Shown piece by piece: positions 37,673 through 45,790 of a stretch of 64,000 nt of DNA; positions within the stretch are counted from its first letter, which is position 1, and every line of letters starts with the position of its first letter. Origin of the DNA: Alphaproteobacteria bacterium (lineage in GTDB: Bacteria > Pseudomonadota > Alphaproteobacteria > Rhizobiales > GCA-2746425); the NCBI GenBank assembly GCA_024743215.1, contig JANSWZ010000003.1, positions 434,001 to 498,000 of the forward strand, given 5' to 3'. Under the pieces are notes generated by a model, which ran no database searches, was not told where the DNA came from, and was given only the letters and a program-made list of their open reading frames with translations. The position numbers were made by a program, and so were the translations under genes.

Positions 37673-38590
37673 TCAAGGTAACTGCAATTCCTTCACTGCC
37701 TTTATAGCGGCCTGGCGAAACACTTGCGCAAACGGTGACAAATCTTCTTCGGCGCGGGTCATGATGCCGATAGGGCCGTTGGTGAGGCCCATATCAATTG
37801 GCAATGCGACCAGTCTTCCATTGGCGATGTCTGTGGCAACGACGCCGCTTGAGATAATCCACAAGGCGTCGCTTGTCAGTGCCAGACCGCGCCCGAATGT
37901 TGCAGAAACTGATTCAATTCGGTTGTGTAGACTGTTGATATTATTGGCAATCATAACGAGATCCACCAGTGGGCGGATAGCTGAATCCAGTGTTGGGTAG
38001 ATGATTTGATAGGCTGAGATATCGGCGAGTCGACTGGTTTTGGCCAGTGGATGGTCTGGTGAGCAAACCACGACGACATCTTCCATATAGAGCTGGGTGA
38101 AGGATATGCCTTTCATTTGGTCGGGCTTCCCAAGCCGACCAATGAGCAAATCAATCGATCCAGTACGCAGACGATCCACCAAAAAACTGTGTTGCCCCCC
38201 TTCAAGCTGAAGAGTGATGTGGGGAAAGTCCTGTTTGAAAATTTGTGTGGCTGATGGCATCAGCCGTGCTGCAACGCTTGGCAGGGCGCCGATTGCAAGG
38301 GAACCCTGTTCTCCTTTTTGCAATGCAGAAACGCTGTTCAATGCCTGATCGAGTGCATTGAGGCTGGTGGAAGCATGTCTTAGGAAAACTTCGCCTTCGG
38401 CGGTTATCAGAACGCCACCCCGACCCCGTTCAAGCAGGGTCACACCTGTTATGCTCTCTAGCTCTTTAAGAGTTTTTGAAATTGCGGGCTGAGTGAGGTG
38501 GAGAAATTCGGCTGCGCGTTTCAGGCTCTTCTGGTTCGCTATTTCGACAAAGGCCTGCAGGTGCCGGACTTTCAATCGTCGATCAATCAT
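37673..38590 (-). CDS. pcaQ: LysR-family regulator, PcaQ-like
   Basis: LysR regulator of 305 aa. The N-terminal helix-turn-helix (KVRHLQAFVEIANQKSLKRAAEFLHLTQPAISKTLKELE) opens with the MIDRRLKVRHLQ typical of PcaQ. The effector domain has GALPSVAARLMP and LYMEDVVVVCSPDHPLA. PcaQ activates protocatechuate genes in response to beta-carboxymuconate/muconolactone-type intermediates. It is divergent from pobA across 136 bp, in keeping with control of pobA-pcaC. A partial copy of its C-terminus lies at 33240-33510. Other LysR regulators of 4-hydroxybenzoate use are possible. Confidence 0.85.
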   Translation of the reverse strand: MIDRRLKVRHLQAFVEIANQKSLKRAAEFLHLTQPAISKTLKELESITGVTLLERGRGGVLITAEGEVFLRHASTSLNALDQALNSVSALQKGEQGSLAIGALPSVAARLMPSATQIFKQDFPHITLQLEGGQHSFLVDRLRTGSIDLLIGRLGKPDQMKGISFTQLYMEDVVVVCSPDHPLAKTSRLADISAYQIIYPTLDSAIRPLVDLVMIANNINSLHNRIESVSATFGRGLALTSDALWIISSGVVATDIANGRLVALPIDMGLTNGPIGIMTRAEEDLSPFAQVFRQAAIKAVKELQLP

Positions 38591-38726
38591 CCTTTCAACC
38601 TCCCAACGGTGTTCGGAGTTTGGTTTCTTTTTTGGTTATGTATTATGCTCATTTCTTCATTTTACTTAACCGTAATTATAATCAATTCTGTTTGCAAGAA
38701 TTGCTGGGGATGACCGGGGGGATCAA

Positions 38727-39896
38727 ATGCGCACGCAGGTGGTAATAATTGGCGGCGGACCATCAGGTTTGCTGCTGTCTCAGCTTCTGCATGTGCACGG
38801 CATCGACAGTGTGGTGCTTGAGCGTAAGACCAAAGACTACGTGCTTGGCCGAATTCGGGCCGGTGTGCTGGAACAGGGATTTGTGCAGCTTATGGAAGAA
38901 GCCGGTGTTGCGGGTCGGCTTCATGCAGAAGGGCATTGCCATGATGGTACTCTGGTGTCCTATGGCGAAGAAATTTTCCGTATTGATTTTGCTGCGCTGA
39001 CTGGCAAACCAGTGGTCGTTTATGGTCAGACCGAAGTGACCAGAGATTTGTATGCGGCGCGGGAAGCTGCCGATGGTGAAGTCGTCTTCAATGTCGACGA
39101 TGTTTCGATCCATGACGCAGATACCAATGCGCCCCATGTTACTTACTCGGTTGATGGGCAATCGCAGCGGATTGACGCGGATTTCGTGGCTGGTTGTGAC
39201 GGCTTTCATGGCGTCAGCCGAAAGACCATACCGCTGGATGTGCGGACCGAATATGAAAAAATCTATCCGTTTGGATGGCTTGGCATCTTGTCGGAAACGC
39301 CGCCGGTGAATGATGAGTTGATTTATGCCACCTCGGAACGTGGCTTTGCACTGTGTTCCATGCGCAATGAAAATCTCAGCCGGTATTACATTCAGTGCTC
39401 CATGTCCGACAATCCCCATGACTGGACCGATGAAGCGTTCTGGGATGAGCTCCGGCGTCGGATTCCAAGGGAGTTCGTCGAGAAGCTGGTGACCGGCCCG
39501 TCGATTGAAAAGTCCATTGCGCCGCTGCGTTCATTCGTGACGGAGCCCATGCGCTGGGGGCGGCTGTTCCTGTGCGGTGATGCGGCCCACATTGTGCCAC
39601 CAACTGGCGCAAAAGGATTGAATACCGCCGCATCCGATGTTCATTATCTCTTGCATGGGCTGCGTGATTTTTATGAAAATGACAGCGAAGCGGGCATTGA
39701 TGGTTATTCTGAGCGGGCCTTGGACCGCGTGTGGAGAGCCCAGCGGTTCAGTTGGTGGTTTTCATCGCTTATGCATCGGTATCCAGAGCAATCCGAATTC
39801 GATTTGAAAATACAGCAAACCGAGTTTAACTTTTTGCGGAATAATCAGTCTGCGCAAAAGGCTATGGCCGAGAACTATGTGGGTTTACCCTACTGA
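38727..39896 (+). CDS. pobA: 4-hydroxybenzoate 3-monooxygenase PobA
   Basis: FAD-dependent hydroxylase of 389 aa, full length, converting 4-hydroxybenzoate plus NADPH and O2 to protocatechuate. Family motifs: FAD-binding GGGPSGLLLSQLL (9-21), RIRAGVLEQGFVQLM, the second FAD motif DADFVAGCDGFHGVSR and the C-terminal GRLFLCGDAAHIVPPTGAKGLNTAASDV. The start has GGGGGGATC just upstream. pcaC follows 35 bp downstream. The other protocatechuate-pathway genes (pcaD, pcaHG, pcaB) are not in the window. Confidence 0.96.
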   Translation: MRTQVVIIGGGPSGLLLSQLLHVHGIDSVVLERKTKDYVLGRIRAGVLEQGFVQLMEEAGVAGRLHAEGHCHDGTLVSYGEEIFRIDFAALTGKPVVVYGQTEVTRDLYAAREAADGEVVFNVDDVSIHDADTNAPHVTYSVDGQSQRIDADFVAGCDGFHGVSRKTIPLDVRTEYEKIYPFGWLGILSETPPVNDELIYATSERGFALCSMRNENLSRYYIQCSMSDNPHDWTDEAFWDELRRRIPREFVEKLVTGPSIEKSIAPLRSFVTEPMRWGRLFLCGDAAHIVPPTGAKGLNTAASDVHYLLHGLRDFYENDSEAGIDGYSERALDRVWRAQRFSWWFSSLMHRYPEQSEFDLKIQQTEFNFLRNNQSAQKAMAENYVGLPY

Positions 39897-39931
39897 TCGA
39901 GTTCAGTCTCAAGAGCAAGCAGGACGTATTT

Positions 39932-40315
39932 ATGAGCAGTCGATATGCAAAGGGATTGGCGGTTCGGCGCGCAGTGCTGGGCGATGCGCATGTGGATGCC
40001 GCGGAATCCATAAAGTCGGACTTTGATGAGCCTTTCCAGACCCTGATTACTGAAAATGCCTGGGGCACGGTCTGGGCAGATGACACGATCCCGCAGCGTG
40101 AGCGCTCTATGATTACCCTGGCATTGTTGGCCGCCACCGGGAATTTCGATGAAATTCCAATGCACATTCGTGCTTGCGCCAATACCGGTGCCTCCAAAGA
40201 CGATATCATGCAGGCCTTCCTGCATGTCGCCATTTACGCAGGCGTTCCGCGCGCAAACCATGCCATTAAGCTTGCCAAGCTAACCTTTGCCGAAATTGAG
40301 GTGGGTGAGGCGTAA
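39932..40315 (+). CDS. pcaC: 4-carboxymuconolactone decarboxylase PcaC
   Basis: Decarboxylase of 127 aa, AhpD-like all-helical fold, converting 4-carboxymuconolactone to 3-oxoadipate enol-lactone. Family motifs RSMITLALLAATGNFDEIPMHIRACANTGASKDDI and AFLHVAIYAGVPRANHAIKLAK are complete. It is co-transcribed with pobA. It is the only ring-cleavage-pathway gene here, so the remainder of the beta-ketoadipate pathway must be elsewhere. The 386 bp downstream hold a palindromic operator-like region but no gene. Confidence 0.94.
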   Translation: MSSRYAKGLAVRRAVLGDAHVDAAESIKSDFDEPFQTLITENAWGTVWADDTIPQRERSMITLALLAATGNFDEIPMHIRACANTGASKDDIMQAFLHVAIYAGVPRANHAIKLAKLTFAEIEVGEA

Positions 40316-40476
40316 GGCTGCGCCAAAAACCTGCCATTCTCATCAGTTGCATCACGACGGATGAAAATGCATTGGCGGTTCATCTTGTTTTTCAGCCTCA
40401 GGCAGGCATCTGACTGCTGCCTGATAGTGGTTTCGCCTGAAACAACATCACCCGTACAGCACCTCAACCTGACCGT

Positions 40477-40504
40477 TGCAAATTTTGCACCGACTCGGCG
40501 CAAA
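40477..40504. promoter_or_regulatory. Overlapping palindromes upstream of the ABC/thiocyanate-hydrolase operon
   Basis: TGCAAA-T-TTTGCA (40477-40489) overlaps a 21-bp inverted repeat (40484-40504; arms TTTGCACCGA and TCGGCGCAAA around a central C, one mismatch). It is about 200 bp before the permease gene and has the look of a LacI- or GntR-type operator. No cognate regulator is adjacent. The rest of the 386-bp gap shows nothing clear. Confidence 0.5.
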
Positions 40505-40701
40505 TGGAGCACTGGTCATCATCGCTGCACTGCACCTAACGTTAACAAACGGTTTGGGATCTGCTCTTCTGTTCCGCTTTGAGTATCGCGAAAACAGGCT
40601 GCAGAACCAAGGAAAATAGACAATTAGGGGCAGATTTGTGCGTCAGTTTCTTCCATGCCTGACAGGGTCATTCATTGGTCTCAATCGCGGGTGGGCTTGA
40701 G

Positions 40702-41484
40702 GTGAATTTGTCGTCTTTTTCGACCTGGTACCACAGGCAAAACTGGATTGTGTATGCAACCGGACCGGTCATTTTGATCTTTGTCTGGTGGGTGGCGTAT
40801 TACTTCACGCTGGTTGACAAAAACCTGCTGCCCTCGCCCTTTGCAACCCTGTTCGACACCAGTGTGAATATCATCACGGGTGATGTGATGACCGATTTCT
40901 GGTTTACACTGGTTCGCGTGTTTTATGCGTTCGCCATTGCGGCCATTGTCGGCGTTCCGCTTGGTATCGTATTGGGCGCAAGCGATCGGGTGTATCGCTC
41001 GGTTGAGTTTCTTATTGACTTTTTCCGCTCCACGCCCGCCACGGCCATGTTTCCATTGTTTTTGCTGCTGTTTGGCCTTGGCGACTTCTCCAAGATTGCA
41101 GTGGCCGCTTTTGCAGCGTTGCTGGTTGTCGTGTTCAACGTGGCTTACGGCGTTATGAATGCGCGGCAGACACGCATTTTAGCTGCGCAATCCATGGGCG
41201 CATCGCGCATGCGCATTTTCGTCGATGTGATTTTCTTTGAGACGTTGCCACAGACCTTCATTGGCCTGCGCACCGCTGTTTCCATGGCACTGGTCGTGAT
41301 CATTGTTGCGGAAATGTTTATTGGCGCAACCGATGGCCTGGGCCACCGGATTATCGATGCGCAGATCTCATACAATCTCACAGACATGTACGGTTCTATC
41401 CTTGTCACAGGGGGCATGGGTTACGGCCTGAATGTCTGTTTCCTCGTTCTCGAAAAATATCTGATTCACTGGTCCGGAAAATGA
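40702..41484 (+). CDS. NitT/TauT-type ABC transporter permease
   Basis: Membrane protein of about 260 aa with six helices. The BPD permease signature is seen in NARQTRILAAQSMGASRMRIFVDVIFFETLPQTFIGLRTAVSMALVVIIVAEMF (EAA loop near residues 155-175). This family (SsuC/TauC/NrtB) imports small anions such as sulfonates, nitrate, cyanate and taurine. The GTG at 40702 is my choice, with a weak GGTGGG site; a TTG at 40675 is the alternative. The stop overlaps an ATG in the next gene. Its place at the head of the thiocyanate-hydrolase-like cluster suggests thiocyanate or another pseudohalide/nitrile as cargo (inference). Confidence 0.88.
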   Translation: MNLSSFSTWYHRQNWIVYATGPVILIFVWWVAYYFTLVDKNLLPSPFATLFDTSVNIITGDVMTDFWFTLVRVFYAFAIAAIVGVPLGIVLGASDRVYRSVEFLIDFFRSTPATAMFPLFLLLFGLGDFSKIAVAAFAALLVVVFNVAYGVMNARQTRILAAQSMGASRMRIFVDVIFFETLPQTFIGLRTAVSMALVVIIVAEMFIGATDGLGHRIIDAQISYNLTDMYGSILVTGGMGYGLNVCFLVLEKYLIHWSGK

Positions 41485-41531
41485 AACTCACTCCCGATCT
41501 CTCTCTCCGGCCTCTTACAAAAGGAAAGACT

Positions 41532-42524
41532 ATGTTGAAGAAGTATCTTGCACTGACCGGCCTCATGACTGCGGTCAGCACTGGCTCTGCCATCGCTGCC
41601 TGTGACAGTTATGAAGAGGTTACCTCTGCCTGGCTGCCAATCATGCAGACCACTGCCTATTATGTGGCACATGAAGAAGGCCTGTTCGAAAAAGCCTGCA
41701 TCAAGGTGAATTCAAACAAGATGCAGTCTCCCAATCACATCATTGATGCACTGGTTGGCGGTCGTGCCGATTTTGGCCCTCCAGGTGCTGCAGCTGGTAT
41801 TGCGATGATTGCGGAAGCGAAATTTCCCGGCACATTCAAAGTATTTGGTCTTCAGGGCGGTGGCATTGAAATCGACCTGATCAATGATGGCCTCATTGTC
41901 AAAGAAGGCAGTGATATCAAATCATTTGCTGATCTCTCCGGCAAAACCATCGGCCATGTACCGGGCATTCAGTGGCGCACCATCACCAAACATCTGGTGC
42001 GTGCGGCCGGTCTTGATCCAGACAAGGATGTAACATTGGTTGATCTGGCCGTTCCCCAGCAGGTGCCTGCTGTTTTGGGTGGAAGCGTGGATGCAACCTT
42101 GTCGCTTGAGCCGGTCGGTTCCATCGCTGCTTCCACTGATGGCGTGACCCGTGCGGTCATCAATCCGGTGGCGCAGGTGATCTCTGATCCGTTTTATTCC
42201 GGTGCTGCCGTATTGACCGTGAAGTTTATTACGGAACGCCCGGAAACTGCCAAGAAAATTGTCGAAATCATTGATGAAGCAACAGCATTGGCGATGGCTG
42301 ATTTCGACAAATACAAAAGCATCATTCCAAAATACACTGCCATTCGTGATACGCAGTTGGACCTGTTGGCCAAGCCTTATCTGCGCAGCTTTACAGATCT
42401 CAACGAGACGGATTTGAATTCCTATCAGGCCTTTGTCGACGTGTTCGTATCTGAAGGCGTCATGAGTGAGCCAATGGATGTCCGGACCAAAATGCTGAGC
42501 CTCAGCGATTTTGACGGAAGCTGA
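41532..42524 (+). CDS. NMT1/SsuA-like ABC substrate-binding protein
   Basis: Periplasmic binding protein of 330 aa with a Sec signal at 1-23. Mature N-terminus SYEEVTSAWLPIMQTTAYYVAHEEGLFEKACIKV follows the NMT1/SsuA/TauA pattern, with GGRADFGPPGAAAG and LSGKTIGHVPGIQWRTITKHLV as conserved ligand-domain segments. The ATG at 41532 follows AAGGAAAG and gives a proper signal peptide. An ATG at 41481 overlaps the permease stop but adds a hydrophilic leader, so it is rejected. It supplies the permease/ATPase encoded on each side. The ligand is unknown and is proposed to be thiocyanate from context only. Confidence 0.87.
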   Translation: MLKKYLALTGLMTAVSTGSAIAACDSYEEVTSAWLPIMQTTAYYVAHEEGLFEKACIKVNSNKMQSPNHIIDALVGGRADFGPPGAAAGIAMIAEAKFPGTFKVFGLQGGGIEIDLINDGLIVKEGSDIKSFADLSGKTIGHVPGIQWRTITKHLVRAAGLDPDKDVTLVDLAVPQQVPAVLGGSVDATLSLEPVGSIAASTDGVTRAVINPVAQVISDPFYSGAAVLTVKFITERPETAKKIVEIIDEATALAMADFDKYKSIIPKYTAIRDTQLDLLAKPYLRSFTDLNETDLNSYQAFVDVFVSEGVMSEPMDVRTKMLSLSDFDGS

Positions 42525-42538
42525 GATCATTGGCAGAC

Positions 42539-43390
42539 ATGATGAATGAGGGTCTTTCAGAGACCATCCCTGACCACTCAGCTGAGGCCGCAACAAGCGG
42601 CCTCAGCTCCGGGTCCAAATCTGCGGCGCGAAAACGGGTGCGTTATCTGACCATAAAAGGTTTGGCGAAATCCTTTGATGATACAATTGTCTATGACGAT
42701 TTTGACCTGACCCTTCCGCTCGGGTCCTTCACCAGTATTTTCGGCCCCAATGGCTGTGGTAAAAGCACGTTGATCAATATGATTTCCGGGCTGATGCCGA
42801 TGAATGCAGGCGAGGTGCTGTATGACGGGCAGACCATTCGCCAGACCAGAATTTCCTATGTGTTCCAGAATTATCGCGAAGCGCTTTTTCCGTGGTTGCG
42901 GGCAATTGACAATCTTCATTATCCGCTGCGTTTGATGGGCGTTGCCAAGAAGGATCGGATTGCGCGGATTGATCAGCTGATCGAGGATTTTGGCATCAAG
43001 ATCGATCTCAATGCCTATCCCTATAATCTGTCGGGTGGTCAGCAACAGGCGATTTCCATAATCAGAGCGCTGGTGCGTGATCCGGAAGTTCTGTTTCTGG
43101 ATGAGCCGTTTTCTGCCCTTGATTATGAGATGACGCTTCTGATGCGGGAAAAACTTCAGGCCATTTTCACTAAAACCGGAACCACGATGGTTCTTGTTTC
43201 CCATGATCTGGAAGAAGCCGTTCAGATGGCTGACAATGTGGTTCTGTTAACACGCAGGCCAACGCGGGTTGCCGAGATTGTGGACAATCCACTGATCAGG
43301 CCACGTGACGCGGCTTCGTTGGTAAGCCCGGAATTTGTGGCTTTGCGCAGCCAATGTCTGGAGATTTTCCAGCGCGAAGCGAAAATTTGA
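42539..43390 (+). CDS. NitT/TauT-type ABC transporter ATPase
   Basis: Single-domain ATPase of about 283 aa. Walker A FGPNGCGKST, Q-loop VFQNYREALFPWLRAIDN (the FPW pattern is typical of SsuB/TauB/NrtD), signature LSGGQQQ, Walker B VLFLDEPFSALD and switch His in VSHDLEEAV. An extra 30-residue Ser/Ala-rich N-terminal extension is unusual but harmless. Start could be TTG 42530 or ATG 42539/42542. It lies 14 bp after the binding protein and 38 bp before the hydrolase-like genes, so the whole set is one operon. Confidence 0.92.
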   Translation: MMNEGLSETIPDHSAEAATSGLSSGSKSAARKRVRYLTIKGLAKSFDDTIVYDDFDLTLPLGSFTSIFGPNGCGKSTLINMISGLMPMNAGEVLYDGQTIRQTRISYVFQNYREALFPWLRAIDNLHYPLRLMGVAKKDRIARIDQLIEDFGIKIDLNAYPYNLSGGQQQAISIIRALVRDPEVLFLDEPFSALDYEMTLLMREKLQAIFTKTGTTMVLVSHDLEEAVQMADNVVLLTRRPTRVAEIVDNPLIRPRDAASLVSPEFVALRSQCLEIFQREAKI

Positions 43391-43428
43391 TGTCTTACCA
43401 CACAGCAACAAATACAGGATGAAACGAC

Positions 43429-43773
43429 ATGCGCGGTTATCATGATATTGGCGGCGACAAGGCAGGTGCCATTCCCAAGGAAGAGCTGCCCTGGCTGCAT
43501 TGGGAAAAGCAGGTAGAAGCCATCCGCAATCTATTGGGTGATGGCACGCGGCGCATTGTCTCTCTGGATGAGATGCGGCGCGGTTTTGAGAGCTTTGGTG
43601 AAGACAAGTACAAAGCGCTTTCATTCTACCGCCGCCGCCTTGAAGCGATGACTGATATTCTGATCGAAAAAGACATCATCAGTCAGGATGAGCTGGATCA
43701 GGCAATCGTCCGAAAAAAGGCCGTCTGGTCTGTAGCGGATATTGGAAAAGATGCTGAGAACAGCCAGCTGTGA
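43429..43773 (+). CDS. scnB: Thiocyanate hydrolase beta subunit-like (nitrile hydratase beta N-terminal half)
   Basis: Protein of 114 aa equal to the N-terminal half of nitrile hydratase beta. It opens with GYHDIGGD (the HD[VI]GG signature), has SLDEMRRGFE, then the helical YKALSFYRRRLEAMTDILIEKDIISQDEL. In thiocyanate hydrolase the beta chain of nitrile hydratase is split into two polypeptides, as here. R50/R51 lie where SCNase beta has an Arg pair that helps bind the anion (recalled, not checked). The start has AGGA upstream. It overlaps the next gene by 4 bp. The HDIGG N-terminus separates it from the activator/P15K proteins of this superfamily. No separate cobalt-insertion activator gene is visible. 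Confidence 0.8.
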   Translation: MRGYHDIGGDKAGAIPKEELPWLHWEKQVEAIRNLLGDGTRRIVSLDEMRRGFESFGEDKYKALSFYRRRLEAMTDILIEKDIISQDELDQAIVRKKAVWSVADIGKDAENSQL

Positions 43774-44069
43774 GTGAGACGAAATTTCGCCGTTTCGATA
43801 TTGGGGATCTGGTTGAGGTGCTTGACCTTGGCAAGAGCGGCCATGTTCGCATTCCGGTCTATGTGCGGGGCAAGCGGGGCCATGTCATCCAGTATTGCGG
43901 CAAATATCTCAATCCAGAAGATCTGGCTGTTGGCAAGACAGCGGGACCGGCGATTGATCTTTACCGGGTCGAATTCACCCAGACATCCCTGTGGGACGAA
44001 CCTGACCATCCGGCGCAGGACCGGTTGATCATTGAAATATACGATCACTGGCTGACAGCCGCAAAATAG
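43770..44069 (+). CDS. scnA: Thiocyanate hydrolase alpha subunit-like (nitrile hydratase beta C-terminal half)
   Basis: Protein of 99 aa equal to the C-terminal SH3-like half of nitrile hydratase beta: FDIGDLVEVL, GHVRIPVYVRGKRGHVIQYCG, LYRVEFTQTSLW and the ending IIEIYDHWL. The GTG start overlaps the previous TGA (GTGA), so the two half-subunits are made in tight coupling. In nitrile hydratase these two halves are one polypeptide; the separation is the hallmark of thiocyanate hydrolase and of the three-subunit toyocamycin nitrile hydratase. T. thioparus has the same B-A-C gene order as far as I recall. SCNase alpha is about 126 aa, so this is a short version. Confidence 0.78.
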   Translation: MSETKFRRFDIGDLVEVLDLGKSGHVRIPVYVRGKRGHVIQYCGKYLNPEDLAVGKTAGPAIDLYRVEFTQTSLWDEPDHPAQDRLIIEIYDHWLTAAK

Positions 44070-44113
44070 GGATCGTCATAGTTCCCATAGGGCAAAACGA
44101 TTTAGAGGCGGAT

Positions 44114-44761
44114 ATGCACGAAGATCACGACGACCATACCCACGATCACAGTCACGACCATACGCATGATGAGTATGAAGCGCTTGTGATTGAAGATGAT
44201 GCGGGAAACATTGAAGCCCAGATCATCATCGATGCCTTGCAGGACGTGCTGATCAGCAAAGGGCTGCTGACAGCACCGGAAGTGACCAAGGAAATCGAAA
44301 AGCTTGAATCACCCGGTATTCATCTTGGTGCCAAAGTGGTTGCGAAAGCATGGACTGATCCTGACTACAAACAACGCCTGCTCAGCAATGGAAAAAGTGC
44401 TGTACAGGAGATTGGCATAGCGGTGGGTGAGGCGCAGATCGTTGTGGTGGAAAACACCGACGAGGTCCACAATCTGATCACCTGCACCCTGTGCTCCTGT
44501 TATCCGCGGTCGATCCTGGGTCAGCCACCATCGTGGTATATTTCCAAGGCCTATCGGGCTCGCACGGTTCGGGAACCGCGGTCAGTATTATCTGAGTTTG
44601 GGTTGGATCTTGAAGATGATGTTCAGCTCATCGTCCATGACAGCAACGCGGATATGCGGTATCTGGTGCTTCCACAGGCGCCTGCTGGTGTGGAGCAGAT
44701 GGAAGCTGATGGTCTTGAGGCGATGGTGACCCGTGATCACCTCATTGGCGTGAGCCGCTAG
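44114..44761 (+). CDS. scnC: Thiocyanate hydrolase gamma subunit-like, cobalt-binding (nitrile hydratase alpha fold)
   Basis: Catalytic metal-binding chain of 215 aa. The cobalt-type motif CTLCSCY is at 124-130, with C127 and C129 expected to be oxidised to Cys-sulfinic/sulfenic acids. It is followed by P-R-S-I-L-G-Q. In nitrile hydratases the residue after CYP is Trp, while thiocyanate hydrolase has Arg (gamma R136), so R132 favours SCNase: SCN- + 2 H2O to COS + NH3 + OH-. The first 19 residues are a His/Asp-rich metal-binding tail, also known in SCNase gamma. Other segments (VVENTDEVHN, RYLVLPQAPAG) are nearer to nitrile hydratase alpha, so a nitrile substrate stays possible. A cobalt permease under a B12 riboswitch follows directly. 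Confidence 0.8.
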   Translation: MHEDHDDHTHDHSHDHTHDEYEALVIEDDAGNIEAQIIIDALQDVLISKGLLTAPEVTKEIEKLESPGIHLGAKVVAKAWTDPDYKQRLLSNGKSAVQEIGIAVGEAQIVVVENTDEVHNLITCTLCSCYPRSILGQPPSWYISKAYRARTVREPRSVLSEFGLDLEDDVQLIVHDSNADMRYLVLPQAPAGVEQMEADGLEAMVTRDHLIGVSR

Positions 44762-44865
44762 GTAGCAACGCGCATGGGAGTCGCCTTGGTCACCGAAATT
44801 ACCAACCTGTTTTTCCGGCACTTCCCGCTTTACTCGCACTGCATCTTGCGCCAAGACTGTTTGCG

Positions 44866-45045
44866 ATGGTTCCCGAACGCCACAGGCGCGCGGGATGAGA
44901 CAAGGGAACACGGTTCGAGCTACCCAAATCGGGATCAAATCCGTGGCTGCCCCCGCAACTGTATGTGACTGCCAAACTCGATATGCCACTGGTTAACGCC
45001 GGGAAGGTGAGTGAGGCGCAAGGCACAAGCCAGGAAACCTGCCAT
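44866..45045 (+). promoter_or_regulatory. Cobalamin riboswitch
   Basis: The conserved core blocks appear in order: a GGTTCCC/GGGAAC closing pair around 44868-44915, AAATC followed by GGCTGCCCCCGCAACTGTA (about 44943-44963), the B12 box GCCACTG (44985-44991), CCGGGAAGG (about 44999-45007) and AGCCAGGAAACCTGCC (45028-45043). It lies 62 bp before the CbiM-like gene, whose expression it should switch off when adenosylcobalamin is plentiful. The match to the class consensus is strong over all blocks. Confidence 0.93.
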
Positions 45046-45106
45046 CCAAACCGGTCGCAAGACCAATTCACACAGGGCGCACGGCGGGTGCGCAAAGGAG
45101 ACTAAA

Positions 45107-45790
45107 ATGCATATTGAACCTGGCGTCGTTGACGGCGCTAAAATTGCCTTGAGCTATGCCACATCAGCCGGTGCTGCCGTGCTGGTCGGAAAAATGGCTT
45201 GGGATACGATTCGCAATGATGGCGGCGTGTCCGCTTTGGCGATGCGCAGTGTCGCTGCGACTTTGATGGTTTTCGTGTTCTTTCAGGTGTTGCCGCATTA
45301 TCCAGTTGGCGTATCGGAAGTTCACTTCATTCTGGGGTCCACGCTTTATCTGCTGTTTGGCGGCGGCGCGGCGGCCATTGGTCTGGCGCTTGGTCTGCTG
45401 GCACAGGGGGTGTTCTTTGCGCCGATTGATCTGCCGCAATATGGTATGAATGTTACAACGCTGCTGTTGCCATTGTGGGCTATCAGCGCGCTGGCAAAAC
45501 GCATCATTGCGCCAAAGACCGCCTATGTGGATTTGTCCTACAAACAGGCGCTGACGCTCTCAACTGCCTATCAGGGTGGTGTGGTTGTCTGGGTCGCTTT
45601 CTGGGCGTTTTATGGTCAGGGATTTGGCGCAGAAAGCCTGAGTTCCGTTGCCTCTTTCGGAGCGGCCTACATGCTGGTTGTTCTTGTTGAGCCACTGGTT
45701 GATCTGGCTGTTCTATACGGCGCAAAAACATTGCGGTCGGTTTCGTCCACCCCGTTGTTTTATGGACGTTTGCACACATCCGCAGCCTGA
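45107..45790 (+). CDS. CbiM-like cobalt transport permease
   Basis: Membrane protein of 227 aa with about six helices. It begins MHIEPG, matching the N-terminal MHI(x)(D/E)G of CbiM/NikM S-components, where the N-terminal amine and His2 bind the metal. The ATG at 45107 has AAAGGAG seven bases upstream; a longer in-frame reading would bury this essential N-terminus. No cbiN, cbiQ or cbiO genes follow, so it is either a stand-alone carrier or uses an ECF module encoded elsewhere. B12-riboswitch control and the position behind a cobalt enzyme support cobalt as substrate. Confidence 0.85.
   Translation: MHIEPGVVDGAKIALSYATSAGAAVLVGKMAWDTIRNDGGVSALAMRSVAATLMVFVFFQVLPHYPVGVSEVHFILGSTLYLLFGGGAAAIGLALGLLAQGVFFAPIDLPQYGMNVTTLLLPLWAISALAKRIIAPKTAYVDLSYKQALTLSTAYQGGVVVWVAFWAFYGQGFGAESLSSVASFGAAYMLVVLVEPLVDLAVLYGAKTLRSVSSTPLFYGRLHTSAA

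Follow-up and report, generated by a model that had tools for sequence, protein, structure and literature searches.

What is taken up, and what becomes of it, when an operon joins an ATP-binding cassette (ABC) importer to a three-subunit enzyme of the nitrile hydratase type? The question is raised by a 64,000-nucleotide stretch of a genome assigned to the Rhizobiales (assembly GCA_024743215.1, contig JANSWZ010000003.1, positions 434,001 to 498,000; this whole stretch is called the window below), in which a first-pass annotation had seen a complete cassette for thiocyanate import and hydrolysis with a cobalt supply of its own. We find that importer and enzyme are one unit conserved in two divergent clades, that the enzyme has its place in a clan of split-subunit enzymes outside the sampled branch of thiocyanate hydrolase (SCNase), and that genes for amide hydrolases adjoin it in close relatives. 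On balance we lean towards a six-gene uptake-and-hydration operon, in which a small nitrile supplied by the importer would be converted to an amide for nitrogen. Such an enzyme, sharing its operon with an importer and tied to the hydrolysis of biuret, formamide or amides, is, we believe, a new variation; literature searches, conducted mostly at title level, returned no description of an importer-linked three-subunit hydratase of this kind.

Linkage of importer and enzyme

The six genes follow one another head to tail on the forward strand. The first encodes an ABC permease of the NitT/TauT type (40675..41484; PF00528, 67.6 bits), its start being uncertain between TTG 40675 and GTG 40702. It is followed by an NMT1/SsuA-like periplasmic binding protein (41481..42524; PF09084, 75.7 bits), for which ATG 41532 is a likelier start than 41481, and by an ABC ATPase (42530..43390; PF00005, 105.3 bits) with an in-frame ATG at 42539. 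All three pass the Pfam gathering scores that served as the threshold for importer domain calls, and the combination of a BPD_transp_1 permease, an NMT1-type binding protein and an ABC ATPase in one operon is that of the NitT/TauT-type importers for nitrate, taurine, sulfonate and cyanate. The window trio differs from these named systems in falling below the equivalog cut-offs of the importer models tested.

The enzyme genes come next. The N-terminal half of a nitrile-hydratase beta chain (bN, 43429..43773; NHase_beta_N PF21006, 46.6 bits) overlaps the C-terminal half (bC, 43770..44069; NHase_beta_C PF02211, 67.5 bits) by 4 nucleotides (nt). Their counterparts in SCNase are the beta and alpha subunits, respectively (bN against solved chains: 2dd4_B, E 0.09, and 3qxe_B, E 5.8e-4; bC: 2dd4_A, E 2.1e-5, and 3qyh_B, E 1.5e-12). 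The catalytic chain, homologous to nitrile hydratase alpha and SCNase gamma, occupies 44114..44761 (NHase_alpha PF02979, 241.8 bits, E 4.4e-72); it has a His-rich N-terminus and the motif CTLCSCYPR at residues 124-132. The gene content listed in the first-pass annotation is thus all present, including the split, overlapping beta-chain genes and the Arg after CYP. Its description of the cassette as unbroken is right for the six import and enzyme genes and goes too far for the cobalt part, since 88 nt separate the enzyme stop from the riboswitch discussed below.

The same arrangement was followed in fifteen related loci. Clade A comprises ten: the window, G102, G038, G192, G325, L108 (Rhodobacteraceae), L109 (Tateyamaria), L110 (a Filomicrobium metagenome-assembled genome, MAG), L111 (an Ectothiorhodospiraceae MAG) and L112 (Beijerinckia L45). 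Clade B comprises five: G023, G160, G245, G278 and L116 (Xanthobacter YC-JY1). The importer trio precedes the enzyme in 8 of these 15 loci, the window counted. It stands directly before bN in the window, in G102 and at every one of the five loci of clade B. A second binding-protein gene intervenes in L112, and in G192 the trio lies about 6 kb away on the opposite strand. At an identity of at least 50%, the trio was found in none of the 74 other loci of the scan, some of which are on short contigs. An NrtA-like binding protein (PF13379) is encoded directly 5´ of bN in G038, G325, G192, L111 and L112, preceded in L111 by an unlike permease and ATPase. No such importer adjoins the enzyme within the stretches fetched for L108, L109 and L110. 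Chance alone does not account for the linkage of the six genes, since other genomes have them together as well, and the proposal that importer and enzyme form one functional unit holds. The binding protein of the trio shares 54-82% identity with eight orthologues from both clades, and the long invariant motifs of these nine proteins speak for one ligand.

The enzyme within the split-subunit clan

The catalytic chain passes the cut-off of neither relevant family model. It scores 170.6 bits on the SCNase gamma model TIGR03887 (cut-off 291.45) and 225.7 bits on the nitrile hydratase alpha model TIGR01323 (cut-off 249.85), and is thus nearer the latter; the nearest solved chains by score are the classical cobalt nitrile hydratases 2dpp, 3qxe and 4ob1. 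For comparison, the annotated scnC of Azospirillum reaches 356.8 bits on TIGR03887 and 351 bits against 2dd4_C of T. thioparus. The SCNase references are these two, the Azospirillum plasmid sequence and the T. thioparus PDB sequence. None of 398 phylum and 385 class sampled genomes, two samples that overlap, contains a chain above the SCNase cut-off.

The features that had suggested an SCNase were examined in a survey of 118 dissimilar rows kept from 216 loci with a catalytic chain: 87 with a split beta chain, 23 with a fused one and 8 whose fetched stretch yielded only one of the beta halves. The set is skewed towards relatives of the window because much of it was fetched using the window's catalytic chain. 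The residue after CTLCSCYP is Arg or Lys in 82 of the 87 split-beta rows (W in 3, with no readable motif in 2), and Arg in 7 and Lys in 1 of the 8 incomplete rows. Among the fused-beta rows it is W, F or H in 22 of 23, the single Arg being that of the Azospirillum SCNase. A second beta-N-type gene, as in the activator-bearing classical enzymes, accompanies 21/22 fused W/F/H rows and 3/3 split W rows, as against 1/82 split R/K rows. At least five His residues in the tail region were counted in 63 of 93 split or incomplete rows and in 14 of 23 fused rows, including the Azospirillum SCNase (two rows without a readable motif are omitted from this count). These features are therefore traits of the whole split clan or, in the case of the His-rich tail, of nothing in particular. 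None of the three traits, the split beta chain, the Arg that follows CTLCSCYP or the His-rich tail, should be taken as diagnostic of SCNase. Split-subunit relatives are frequent in sampled genomes and are named nitrile hydratase or thiocyanate hydrolase by default.

The active-site positions were compared next. On the numbering of 2dd4, the EERRR stretch of SCNase beta spans residues 88-92, and gamma has Arg136 following its CYP; beta R90 and R91 and gamma R136, the residues singled out in the first-pass annotation, have a role in the SCNase pocket. The window has Met49, Arg50 and Arg51 at beta R90, R91 and R92, and Arg132 at gamma R136. The gamma Arg is thus matched and beta R90 is not, all ten rows of clade A having Leu, Met or Val in its place; beta R91 is matched by Arg50 but is uninformative, because Arg stands there in every group bar one gapped row. 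Clade A has a trait of its own in Arg at another beta position (Arg68 of the window; 10/10 rows), presumably the place of Trp72 of the Pseudonocardia enzyme. Elsewhere this position is Glu in 102 and Arg in 1 of the 112 other split R rows, Glu in 3/3 distinct clade-B rows and Gly in SCNase. Arg68 and Arg132 together could make the pocket more positive, which may suit an anion, thiocyanate included, and names none.

In the catalytic-chain tree (64 rows, SCNase being two rows only), a branch with support of 100/100 divides the split enzymes and SCNase from the classical nitrile hydratases. On the split side, the long SCNase branch has as its neighbours L093/L133 (Streptomyces), L094 and L005 (93/87); the 10 rows of clade A, to which the window belongs, and the 4 rows of clade B form a group at 91/82. 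The tree of joined bN, bC and catalytic chains (57 rows) again places SCNase with L093/L133, L094 and L005 (94/90), with clade A at 100/99 and clades A and B only weakly together (90/47). By the approximately unbiased (AU) test, the catalytic chain by itself does not reject a grouping of clade A with SCNase (p 0.10), and the three joined chains do (p 0.011); clades A and B with SCNase are rejected already on the catalytic chain (p 0.03). In these trees, true SCNase is one distant branch inside a large split-subunit clan. The expected separation from classical nitrile hydratases was borne out, and the expected union with SCNase was not.

Membership of the SCNase family is not supported, in view of the missed cut-off, the absence of beta-Arg90 and the joined-chain tree. 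The T. thioparus enzyme (2dd4; TIGR03887) shares with the window enzyme its three polypeptides, the Arg at gamma R136, the His-rich tail and the split clan; it differs in the residue at beta-Arg90, in forming a separate clade on the joined tree and in a model score that the window is far from reaching. Nor does the enzyme qualify as a classical nitrile hydratase: the alpha chain is below its cut-off, the beta chain is split and there is no second beta-N gene at the locus. Classical cobalt enzymes (TIGR01323/TIGR03888) have the catalytic-chain fold family and the metal motif in common with the window; theirs is a fused beta chain with an activator gene and W, F or H after CYP (all 22 non-SCNase fused rows). 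As to the SCNase activator P15K, only one beta-N-type gene is present at the locus; the remaining genome was not searched for it.

Some variants were seen in the survey. In L018, L022, L041, L047 and others, bN is fused ahead of the catalytic chain in one reading frame, and several of these genomes are about 1 to 1.6 Mb. In one split-type catalytic chain (L030:1372-2088), SSLGASYPR replaces the CTLCSCYP motif and the metal Cys residues are lost.

Amide hydrolases and candidate substrates

What surrounds the enzyme in relatives offers a clue to its product. A biuret hydrolase gene adjoins the importer, divergently, in all five clade-B loci (424-427 bits in two of them, cut-off 370; the G245 copy is cut by the contig end). 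At the genome level, biuret hydrolase is over the cut-off in 6/10 clade-A genomes, 4/5 clade-B genomes (G245 being truncated) and 0/4 congeners of the window organism that lack the enzyme, with a base rate of 53/249 in the order sample. A formamidase or amidase adjoins the enzyme in 6 of 10 clade-A loci. The formamidase gene is divergent next to the NrtA-like gene in G038, G325 and G192; in L111 it comes after the catalytic gene and is read in the same direction. L108 and L109 have an amidase gene whose start falls within the last part of the catalytic gene, and a formamidase is found 13 kb away. Formamidase is over the cut-off in 9/10 clade-A, 0/5 clade-B and 0/4 congener genomes, the base rate in the order sample minus clade A being 29/245 (Fisher p 1.3e-7 against clade A). 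Allophanate hydrolase is over the cut-off in 14 of the 15 clade-A and clade-B genomes (the G1099 copy is cut by the contig end) and in 1/4 congeners; coverage of the model is limited to roughly three quarters in four clade-B genomes and G1097, where one match has an internal stop. The window genome has its allophanate hydrolase on contig C14. A BMP-type binding protein was seen in the same stretch as formamidase and biuret hydrolase in the five clade-A genomes looked at.

Hydration would convert cyanourea to biuret, cyanide to formamide and cyanamide to urea, and the neighbours suggest cyanourea and cyanide among the candidate substrates. In the uptake-and-hydration operon that we favour, the importer, from its class and its linkage, would take in a small nitrile, probably as an anion. 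The enzyme, at a predicted cobalt centre, would add water across the C-N triple bond to give an amide, as the CTLCSC motif suggests and as a characterized relative would lead one to expect. Biuret hydrolase, formamidase, amidase and allophanate hydrolase would then free ammonia from that amide, to judge from their position beside the enzyme in relatives; in the window genome such hydrolases are encoded elsewhere. Acetamiprid and thiacloprid carry N-cyano groups. Both, as well as BN, are substrates of the cobalt-containing, activator-independent three-subunit nitrile hydratase AnhD-AnhE-AnhA of Streptomyces canus CGMCC 13662, in the part of the account available (PMC7329996). By analogy, this activity fits cyano-amide substrates for the window enzyme. 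The two enzymes share the split beta chain, the order N-half, C-half and catalytic chain, the lack of an activator gene at the locus and CTLCSC; an importer is described for the window type only, none appearing in that part of the S. canus account (PMC7329996).

The boldest form of this proposal is a dedicated cyanourea system, with import, hydration to biuret and release of nitrogen by biuret hydrolase and allophanate hydrolase. Cyanourea is carbamoylcyanamide, an anion at neutral pH. The cyanourea route is possible though unlikely; if true, the enzyme would be a nitrile hydratase served by an importer of its own, and biuret metabolism would have a point of entry for N-cyano compounds. In either form, the retained importer and the adjacent hydrolases of biuret, formamide or amides provide the enzyme with a role that can be tested and with a handful of candidate substrates.

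Several observations weigh against the proposed operon function. The Fisher test for formamidase includes clade-A genomes from outside the order, and related genomes are not independent. In the order sample, 32 of the 33 genomes with formamidase also have biuret hydrolase, within 10 kb in 30 and within 400 bp in 23; the three that depart from this proximity are G053 and two genomes of clade A, G038 and G192, in both of which formamidase is beside the hydratase. Formamidase is thus a usual neighbour of biuret hydrolase, and finding it does not by itself identify the product as formamide. In the window genome itself the two genes are 39 bp apart on contig C12, and the enzyme is on C3. Formamidase is not over the cut-off in the five clade-B genomes or in G1097, nor is biuret hydrolase in four clade-A genomes. 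The S. canus enzyme could be entered only by its primer-encoded ends, and these gave no match that places it in the tree. A profile search of solved structures with the binding protein returned two weak matches (best 3qsl, E 3.3e-9), and structure prediction for the binding protein from three sequences had a mean predicted local distance difference test score (pLDDT) of 39.3 and was not used further.

Three other explanations have to be set against this operon function. The enzyme may be an SCNase in function, reached outside the known SCNase branch, with imported thiocyanate converted to carbonyl sulfide (COS) and ammonia. This would agree with the split subunits, the Arg132 at the gamma R136 place, the position on the SCNase side of the deep split and the catalytic-chain AU test, and also with the charge that Arg68 may add in clade A and an importer class suited to small anions. 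The first-pass identification as thiocyanate hydrolase nevertheless fails on the distance to the family cut-off, on the Met in place of beta-Arg90 and on amide hydrolases beside the enzyme in close relatives; the joined chains also reject the grouping, and Arg or Lys after CYP is common to the split clan. We regard SCNase function as improbable. Similarly improbable in our view is a general nitrile hydratase whose neighbouring importer serves another nutrient, the two being joined as a nitrogen-scavenging island. The stretches fetched for five clade-A loci (G038, G325, L108, L109, L110) contain the enzyme and no trio, and nitriles are often neutral and membrane-permeable. On the other hand, the trio keeps its place in more than half of the loci in two divergent clades, and an NrtA-like binding protein is encoded directly before bN in five clade-A loci.

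A cobalt cyanide hydratase, with formation of formamide and its hydrolysis by formamidase, would provide clade A with both detoxification and a nitrogen route. The four clade-A loci with formamidase beside the enzyme, and the nine clade-A genomes with a formamidase over the cut-off, are what such a route would lead one to expect. Yet clade B shares importer and enzyme and has no formamidase over the cut-off, formamidase usually accompanies biuret hydrolase, and HCN needs no importer; formamidase as proof of cyanide is weakened by the proximity of biuret hydrolase in 30 of 33 formamidase genomes, and we give the cyanide route a distinctly low probability.

Cobalt genes and the edges of the cassette

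Downstream of the enzyme, on the same strand, are a cobalamin riboswitch (44850..45060; RF00174, 98.4 bits, gathering score 31.5) and a gene for a CbiM-like permease (45107..45790; PF01891, 54.7 bits). They had been taken for a built-in cobalt supply, a claim that did not survive comparison with the congeners G001 and G002, which have no match to the catalytic chain. Collinearity with both begins at 44816..44821, between the enzyme stop and the riboswitch, with genus sequence downstream of this boundary; CbiM identity is 97% in G002 and 93% in G001, and the riboswitch is present in both. Because riboswitch and CbiM occur in congeners that lack the enzyme, we reject them as part of the unit: they are resident genes of the genus, not shown to belong to it. 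Nor does CbiM travel with the cassette. It is matched in 3 of the 15 clade-A and clade-B genomes and adjoins the enzyme only in the window, and a search of stretches from fourteen related loci gave no cobalamin riboswitch at or above the gathering score. The permease could still help to load the enzyme with cobalt. In Acuticoccus yangtzensis, a CbiM homologue (L139:16362; 62%) with no riboswitch match is encoded some 6 kb away from a split-type enzyme that belongs to a different subgroup.

A probable remnant of the 3´ end of a cobalamin riboswitch is found at the other edge of the cassette, just before the importer, at 40299..40337 on the forward strand, where it overlaps the end of a pcaC-like gene. 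Its local alignment score of 39 compares with 27 for the next best in the window and with at most 25 in 500 shuffles. A second full riboswitch before the permease was considered and rejected: there is no Rfam cobalamin match in 39900-40900, only the short alignment remnant. On account of this remnant, recombination at the riboswitch may either have brought in the cassette or have rearranged it, and may have run in either direction. In G002, some 130 bp separate the riboswitch from a LysR gene that has lost its start, so that gain in the window and loss in G002 are indistinguishable, and no clean empty site is claimed.

Directly upstream of the cassette, 37673-40315 holds a LysR gene and genes for 4-hydroxybenzoate 3-monooxygenase (672 bits, cut-off 538.7) and 4-carboxymuconolactone decarboxylase (182.8 bits, cut-off 155.7).

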